Positions 1 through 24,967 of a stretch of 64,000 bases of DNA are shown one piece after another. Location of the stretch: NCBI GenBank assembly GCA_000702025.1, contig JNKJ01000006.1, forward strand, positions 1 to 64,000, read 5' to 3'. The notes below the pieces were generated by a model. It did no database searches and was not told the DNA's origin. It saw only the letters and a program-made list of their open reading frames with translations. How positions within the stretch are numbered: position 1 is the stretch's first letter; the number at the start of each line of letters is the position of its first letter. The DNA comes from Blautia schinkii DSM 10518. Its GTDB lineage: Bacteria > Bacillota > Clostridia > Lachnospirales > Lachnospiraceae. A program made the position numbers and the translations under genes.

Positions 1-281
1 AAAAGGAGCTGGACGAGAAAATCCAGCAGCTTCACGAAGCAATGGAAGCCGCTGCGCAGACCGCCGTTGACGCTGAAAAGTGGGTAGGACTGATGAAGCA
101 GTATGTCAACCCTACGGAGCTGACCGCCGAACTTCTGAACACTCTAATTGAAAAAATAACCGTCCACGAAGCTGTCAAGGGCGAGGACGGAAGCCGTGAG
201 CAGGAAGTAGAAATCTACTACCGCTTCATCGGCAAAATCGACTGACCTTTCTTTTTTACCCAACAATATCTTTAATTAAGG
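1..281 (+). mobile_element. Right end of an integrative element inserted in an XRE gene
   Basis: The recombinase tail ends at 245. From about position 282 the sequence continues in one frame as the C-terminal half of an XRE helix-turn-helix domain (ETGKSYPDLEMLMKISDHF...), whose first half is missing. In XRE proteins this segment normally follows a WE dipeptide, so the element probably interrupts the gene there. The junction is placed at about 275-285 by reading frame only. The left end is outside the window. Confidence 0.6.
3..245 (+). CDS. Large serine recombinase, C-terminal end (partial)
   Basis: An open frame enters from the left edge and ends at the TGA at 243-245, giving about 80 residues. 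The tail (LIEKITVHEAVKGEDG... ending VEIYYRFIGKID) matches what is known of the C-terminal DUF4368-type region of large serine recombinases of Tn4451/Tn5397-like elements. A coiled-coil-like charged stretch precedes it. The catalytic domain lies outside the window. The gene ends about 35 bp before an apparent insertion junction, which fits elements that carry the recombinase gene at their right end. Family assignment rests on a short tail. Confidence 0.75.
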   Translation, partial: KELDEKIQQLHEAMEAAAQTAVDAEKWVGLMKQYVNPTELTAELLNTLIEKITVHEAVKGEDGSREQEVEIYYRFIGKID

Positions 282-11526: not shown

Positions 11527-11790
11527 GGGGGTTCCCGGGAAGTTGTGGAACGGTAAAGCGGATGGGCTTTGGGGCCGGGAGAGGGATTGTCCCTGTCGGG
11601 CTGATGCTCGCTTCCCTTCAACTAAGTTCTAACTGCGACTAAGCAGCTCACGAAGAGCGTTCGCCGCTAAGTCTCCGTAAGAACTGGATTTTCAGGCGCG
11701 CTTCCGCAAATCAGCCCAACAGGGACAATCCCTCTCCCGGCCCCCAAGCCCATCCGCTTTACCTACTTCTACGTTTCTGAACCTGCACCG
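11527..11790 (+). repeat. Long hairpin element, copy 1 (variable arms, 104-nt core)
   Basis: Left arm 11554-11605 and right arm 11710-11761 are inverted complements (50 of 52 positions). Between them is a 104-nt core (11606-11709) that starts GCTCGCTTCCCTTCAACTAA and ends GGCGCGCTTCCGCAA. Inside the core GTTCT (11626-11630) pairs with AGAAC (11680-11684). Outer flanks GGGTTCCCGGGAAGTTG on the left and CTACGTTTC on the right recur at copies 2 and 3. No ORF is carried. It fills the gap between spoIIQ and the next LacI gene. Nature unknown: a structured RNA, a fold-back DNA element or both. Confidence 0.88.
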
Positions 11791-24220: not shown

Positions 24221-24478
24221 TAAAGGGGGCCCCTGGAAATGTATTGAACGGTAAGAGGAAGGAAATTGGGTGCGGAGGCGCTGGTGCTGTCTTGTCAGGC
24301 ATTGCTCGCTTCCCTTCAACTAAATGCCAACTGCGACTAAGACGCTCACGAAGAGCGTTCGCGTCTAAGTCTTAGTAGGCATTGGATTTTCAGGCGCGCT
24401 TCCGCAAAATGCCTGACAAGGCCAGCACCAGCGCCTCCGCACCCAATTTCCTTCCTCTTACCTACCACTACGTTTTCG
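24221..24478 (+). repeat. Long hairpin element, copy 2 (variable arms, 104-nt core)
   Basis: Left arm 24251-24303 and right arm 24408-24461 are inverted complements with about three differences. The core 24304-24407 is exactly 104 nt and matches the core of copy 1 except at helix positions: ATGCC/GGCAT replaces GTTCT/AGAAC, and GACGC/GCGTC forms a second short stem. Arm sequence differs from copy 1. Outer flanks GGGGGCCCCTGGAAATG and CTACGTTTTC match the other copies. Head-to-head with copy 3 across about 190 bp of non-coding DNA. Confidence 0.88.
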
Positions 24479-24669
24479 TCCCCTTTGTGGTAGTGGTTGT
24501 TTTCGCCGGGAGGCTATTCCTGCGGGAGACAAGCTGCGCGGTGGTGAGGGTATGTTTATTCCCGCGACCTACAAGTCGAGCGGCCATGTTCGTATGGACA
24601 TTGTATCAACGTTGTTGTATTAAATTTGCGGTTTGAAAATCTTCCGGTAAAAACGACAAACACTGTGGA

Positions 24670-24967
24670 AGGGGTGGGAACGTAGAAGAAGGCTAGGGGG
24701 AAGTTGGGGGCTGGGGCCGGGCTTATATCCGGGGCAGGCTGATTTGCGGAAGCGCGCCTGAAAATCCAATGCCTACGGAGACTTAGGAGCGAACGCTCTT
24801 CGTGAACTTCTTAGTCGCAGTTGGCATTTAGTTGAAGGGAAGCGAGCATCAGCCTGCCCCGGATATAAGCCCGGCCCCAGCCCCCAACTTCCCCCTAGCC
24901 GTTCGATAACTTTCCGGGGTGAACCCTTCCCTTCCGTTCGATAACTTCCCGGGGAATCCCTTCCTTA
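24670..24967 (-). repeat. Long hairpin element, copy 3 (inverted, perfect arms)
   Basis: Arms 24691-24743 and 24848-24900 are perfect inverted complements (53 of 53). The 104-nt core 24744-24847 is the reverse complement of the family core; like copy 2 it has the ATGCC/GGCAT helix but another sequence in the next helix. The outer left flank is present twice in tandem: CCGTTCGATAACTTTCCGGGG from 24899 and CCGTTCGATAACTTCCCGGGG from 24934 (35-nt period). No protein is encoded. Confidence 0.9.

Follow-up and report, generated by a model that had tools for sequence, protein, structure and literature searches.

The three long-armed hairpins of the window (the whole stretch of 64,000 nucleotides from Blautia schinkii DSM 10518 analysed here) belong to a new family of mobile fold-back elements that behave like REPINs or MITEs, with about 150 copies in the genome of the window (hereafter G000). 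Each unit forms a rod-like hairpin of ~250-300 nt, in which long stems of variable sequence lie between conserved loops and the apex is a core of 104 nt. We hold it to be probable that these are non-autonomous mobile elements whose stems stay matched by the copying of one arm from the other, and whose loops are recognised by an enzyme acting in trans.

The initial annotation had described three copies with a 104-nt core and long complementary arms, and this was confirmed by the matches of a covariance model (R1) built from 51 cores and by the pairing of the arms. Copy 1 (11527-11775, plus strand) comprises, in order, the leader (GGGG..CCC..GAACGG), the left arm (11552-11605), the core (11605-11708; 128.4 bits with R1), the right arm (11710-11763) and the tail motif CTACGTT. 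Copy 2 (24225-24474; core 24303-24406, 129.5 bits) lies on the same strand, and copy 3 (24679-24926, minus strand) in the opposite orientation, with its core at 24745-24848 (126.3 bits), its left arm at 24848-24900 (right on the plus strand) and its right arm at 24691-24743 (left on the plus strand). The limits of the units were drawn from the sequence and from the leader and tail consensuses, and the arms of copies 1 and 3 were delimited by an inverted-repeat search (54 nt at 96% and 53 nt at 100%, the latter 53/53). Counted as pairs, the arms match at 51/53 positions without gaps in copy 1, at 60/66 with one gap in copy 2, where the pairing was traced outward, and at 52/52 in copy 3. Copies 2 and 3 are tail-to-tail, separated by a spacer (24475-24678) without similarity to other spacers. 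The replacement of GTTCT/AGAAC in the core of copy 1 by ATGCC/GGCAT had been correctly described, and reading of the next short core helix likewise showed both of its sides to be altered, copy 1 having a single A.C mismatch there.

Around these copies, the leader of copy 3 appears by reading to be doubled in tandem (24901-24965), and a similar tandem leader precedes the copy at C15:57813. The strong promoter-like sites of the window (10-11 of 12 positions) serve the flanking genes and are directed away from the elements, and two weak ones (9 of 12) are directed towards copy 1. We do not claim a partner remnant behind copy 1, as the best leader match there (16/26) equals the shuffled maximum; for the single copies at C7:161087, C8:173560 and C18:57987, the leader match reaches 21-22 of 26 positions, against 16-17 in shuffled sequence.

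Throughout G000, the leader consensus is aggGgnncCCcGGaAaGgTgTTGAACGG (56 copies), followed by a left arm mostly of 48-52 nt, the core, the right arm and the tail, with the consensus CCTcaCCT.CCaCTACGTT (55 copies). The leader side faces gene starts in 74/122 cases and gene ends in 48/122. In other genera, the base of the hairpin reads GGACGC..GCTGTGT or GCTGG, and more paired, unconserved stem can be read beyond it. An extra branch of ~160 nt is present at one core position in seven G000 copies (the long forms L062, L064, L044, L091, L115, L161 and L145). In the six scored copies, 23-25 positions of its 26-nt stem are paired, and the changes in this stem are two-sided in 14 cases and one-sided in 7. 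An insertion sequence interrupting several cores was also considered and proved wrong, these cores holding the extra hairpin branch. The RNA fold of a 281-nt stretch around copy 1 is far more stable than shuffled sequence (z -12.7), as is the DNA fold of the other strand (z -14.2); the core alone folds no better than chance (z -0.9). The view that the core corresponds to no named family is upheld in Rfam, in which no family over a core reached its threshold, either at gathering or at relaxed settings; the best overlap was with the miRNA precursor MIR6201, which scored 32.9 bits, with 69 required, on a single copy in L115. Among the open-licence PMC papers listed in a literature search, none describes the element.

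The search for the core in the whole genome showed the observation to be real and far larger than three copies. In the 6.68 Mb of G000, the core pattern, when as many as 3 mismatches are allowed, occurs at 143 places (0 for the reversed control), and R1 recovers at least 146 copies, with 150 of 2082 candidates scored. A visual comparison shows some places that the pattern matches and that the R1 list lacks (at least C26:639, C38:635, C38:15557 and C3:14), and the true number of cores is therefore somewhat above 146. A core is also found at the start or end of contigs C1, C18, C23, C24, C26, C33, C34, C37 and C38, as well as C42, C43, C46, C52, C56 and C57. Contigs thus start or end inside cores, so the short-read assembly breaks at the elements and the copy number may be underestimated. 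Sufficient flanks (at least 130 nt on each side) are available for 124/146 R1 copies, of which 107 have arms of at least 45 pairs. Eight more reach at least 40 pairs under settings that admit longer cores and somewhat shorter arms, for a total of 115/124. Long arms are absent from the nine others (C5:287811, C11:286, C19:333, C19:112173, C19:121078, C24:86933, C26:83300, C45:28366 and C55:338), among which C19:333 has 13 pairs and C55:338 has 23 perfect pairs.

Beyond G000, the core is patchy among relatives and often multi-copy. With filters that lose weak matches and a ceiling on the matches counted per genome, R1 detects it in 20/60 genomes of the genus and in 17/299 of the family, the latter sampled at nearly one genome per genus (G000 included in both). 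No match was obtained in viral contigs with one exact pattern, nor in plasmids and phages with one core query each. Across genera, conservation lies in the middle of the element and in the unpaired loops, not in the ends. The claim that arm sequences differ between copies holds between genomes: of 25 arms taken from four other genomes, only one is similar to an arm of G000, the same as in the shuffled control, and no matches between genomes were found when the arms of these four were compared with each other. Within G000, in contrast, the arms are not private, as 101/107 left arms match an arm of another copy at E<=0.01. In G085, 0/7 arms match even within the genome.

The changing arms had been taken to speak against a transposable inverted repeat. 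This does not hold, as the element is mobile, which follows from target duplications in one relative (G059), from empty sites and from the patchy, multi-copy distribution. The G059 hairpins end in GATGTC..GACATC; 17 loci were fetched (L162-L178), 14 tried and 13 scored with both ends, and target duplications of 6-9 bp were found in 13/13, with a tolerated shift of at most 2 bases. Eleven of these direct repeats are exact (6-8 bp) and two have one mismatch (7-9 bp). Their summed score is 83 versus 15.2 +- 7.1 for shuffled flanks, with 0/2000 shuffles as high. The same genome contains internally deleted hairpins that keep one or both ends (L238-L257), down to ~30 nt in L256. By eye, no clear target duplications were seen for the G000 doublets or the G192 elements. 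The proposed comparison of empty sites was carried out for copy 1, whose flanking genes are adjacent in 17/64 genomes of the genus. The gap between the matched parts of these genes is ~85-332 bases in relatives versus ~456-498 in the window. Of these 17 relatives, 7 were read, and R1 detected a core in none of them, nor at four more loci where the left neighbour is different or farther off (0/11 loci in total). The genes that flank the single copies in G004, G047 and G008 look like ordinary cellular ones.

The unit is not the same in all genomes, since single units have transposed in G059 and a two-hairpin unit of ~0.8 kb repeats in G192. In G000, neighbouring copies less than 3 kb apart are invariably arranged plus then minus, tail-to-tail (40/40), with 206-1151 nt between cores, and single units also occur. 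The same arrangement was found in 9/9 such pairs of other genomes (G085, G046 twice, G289, G161 twice, G040, G290 and G116). Apart from the cores of the long forms and a small number of short matches, the G000 spacers have no extended similarity to one another. The ~0.8 kb element of G192 aligns from copy to copy and includes a second, different giant hairpin, two copies of which accompany a single rod at L336 and again at L340. In 4/4 scored loci, the left end of the element coincides with the stop codon of an open frame that is at least 495 nt long. An example of the second hairpin, at L311:945-1312 (G192:C29), spans ~368 nt with an RNA fold of -240 kcal/mol; this hairpin recurs at many places in G192, in extra copies as well, and has no Rfam match at threshold.

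The statement that pairing rather than sequence is conserved is strongly substantiated across genera. In an alignment of 72 distinct rows (from 76 matches, three weak antisense ones included), 25/26 pairs vary on both sides and 92.8% of cells pair. The covariation score is 0.614, versus 0.172 +- 0.009 in shuffled alignments and no more than 0.115 when the partners are slid, although these figures are favoured by an alignment fitted to the tested structure. Strong covariation is not in itself proof of a functional RNA, because arm copying would yield the same signal. With the three weak antisense matches dropped, the core helices contain 44 G.U versus 75 A.C, 39 of the latter from one column, and 42 versus 36 once this column is removed.

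From the 63/124 G000 copies with gapless arms of at least 45, 19 independent closest pairs were obtained, in which 186 arm positions changed on both arms versus 43 on one. Among 78 arm mismatches, 21 are G.T and 28 A.C, and this lack of preference for G.T speaks against RNA selection, which would favour G.U. Lengths are mirrored as well. In the 92/146 copies with both anchors (15 were dropped for a short flank, 17 and 13 for lacking the left or right anchor, respectively, and 9 for a short core), the two arm lengths differ by the same amount, to within 2 nt, in 88, where 59 are expected and no shuffle exceeds 70. Length variants are mirrored in both arms in 11/14 cases, and arm lengths correlate with a Spearman coefficient of 0.79 (Pearson 0.22, lowered by four outliers). 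In G192, indels of 5 and ~10 nt are present in both arms. In one copy, L028:2125, the core helix whose mismatches are conserved in the other rows has become a perfect palindrome. Given the mirrored lengths, the excess of double over single changes and the absence of a G.T preference, the arms are most likely kept matched by copying one from the other, and the initial suggestion of hairpin-templated copying is the best reading of these data. The lack of a preference for G.U places the shaping of the arms at the DNA level; the core may still have an RNA role. Part of the arm diversity comes from module exchange rather than copying, because whole hairpin types are swapped within one G192 frame: among 11 G192 copies, the sequence adjacent to the hairpin is 82-83% identical on average, the left arms fall below 60% in 29/55 comparisons, and these low-identity comparisons mostly correspond, by reading, to two hairpin types.

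These observations could also be read as a host structured RNA multiplied in the genome, its helices kept by stepwise compensatory mutations and its loops folding or binding a protein. The very strong covariation, the unpaired loops conserved across genera and the covarying stem of the extra branch would be expected of such an RNA, as would the CTAA..GGAT loop, which we take to resemble the UAA/GAN RNA motif. We nevertheless consider it unlikely, as G.U is not preferred over A.C in either the arms or the core helices, single mutations do not account for the mirrored indels, the element is absent from most relatives (40/60), and no promoter consensus was found upstream of the leader in the aligned G000 copies. 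A combined reading also seems improbable to us, in which a structured element would be recognised by its loops and not its ends, might move in a SINE-like manner through a folded RNA or single-strand copy, and would have one arm resynthesised from the other. If true, copies would gain new yet self-matching arms through this resynthesis. The reverse transcriptase domain PF00078 gave no signal, occurring in 9/12 carriers versus 12/12 non-carriers.

An encoded mobiliser was not found among Y1/RAYT transposases, reverse transcriptases or the intervals between facing copies. An ordinary MITE, that is, a DDE transposon that has lost internal sequence and whose matching terminal repeats serve as recognition sites for the transposase encoded by a related insertion sequence, with the hairpin and core as passengers, agrees with the G059 target duplications and inverted ends and with the deletion derivatives retaining both ends. 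We judge this to be possible though rather unlikely: conservation across genera is in the middle and not at the ends, a G059 whole-arm query retrieved only hairpins and their derivatives and no related transposon (40 candidates scored), and an autonomous element between the facing copies of G290 and G116 was rejected because the frames in these intervals (2.2 and 2.9 kb) read as host genes. Mobilisation of a REPIN-like system by a RAYT (Y1) transposase appears highly doubtful. The inverted, extragenic doublets are suggestive of it, and full-length frames that we take to be RAYT-like occur in 5/12 carriers and in none of the matches listed for 12 non-carriers, a contrast picked after the list was seen. 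These frames (200-277 aa; G040, G002, G192, G085 and G289, L317-L321) have no cores nearby. Any Y1 match is found in 9/12 carriers versus 10/12 non-carriers, G000 has only Y1 fragments, and 14 stretches around Y1 matches contain no core, showing no consistent link between this transposase and the element. Furthermore, single units make target duplications in G059, and IS200/IS605-type transposition is not known to make any.

Loop recognition with arm copying is, in our view, the probable explanation. Intramolecular arm-to-arm copying, by replicative template switching or fold-back primed synthesis, would keep the stems matched, and a putative trans-acting enzyme would recognise the folded element through the conserved loops, leaving the stems free to change.

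Among known systems, the element resembles REPINs (PMC3116915) in being non-autonomous, high-copy, extragenic and organised in inverted doublets and hairpins. In contrast to REP units, of 20-40 bp (PMC3733652), its unit is far larger, its arms change in a mirrored way, target duplications are made in G059 and no RAYT lies beside the elements. We do not file it as a REPIN because the defining features, when tested, were not found together: inverted palindromic doublets are present, along with single units, but a RAYT next to its own repeats is absent from G000 and from the Y1 stretches. MITEs and stem-loop repeats (for example bcr1, from the Bacillus cereus group) are likewise small, intergenic and hairpin-folding (PMC2267715, in part), and MITEs share the target duplications. 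Here, in contrast, the apical core and loops are conserved, the ends are common to G059 copies and different between genomes, and no related insertion sequence was retrieved by the G059 query. The proposed copying mechanism fits the template-switch model of PMC8794818, described from ancestral reconstructions of RNA genes, where stems stay perfect through multi-base, two-sided changes in one event; the difference is that we deal with a mobile element of ~150 copies in one genome. The coding palindromes of Nematomorpha mitochondria are also long perfect inverted repeats, lying within protein genes, and the abstract of PMC6649704 describes no mobile high-copy element.

The element points to a putative mobilising system in Clostridia. 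With ~150 parallel copies in one genome and sets in other genera, in all of which the two sides of the long stems change jointly, in length as well as in sequence, the question of whether stem pairing is maintained by compensatory selection or by template switching becomes directly testable, and the element constitutes a natural test of the copying of one side of a hairpin from the other.
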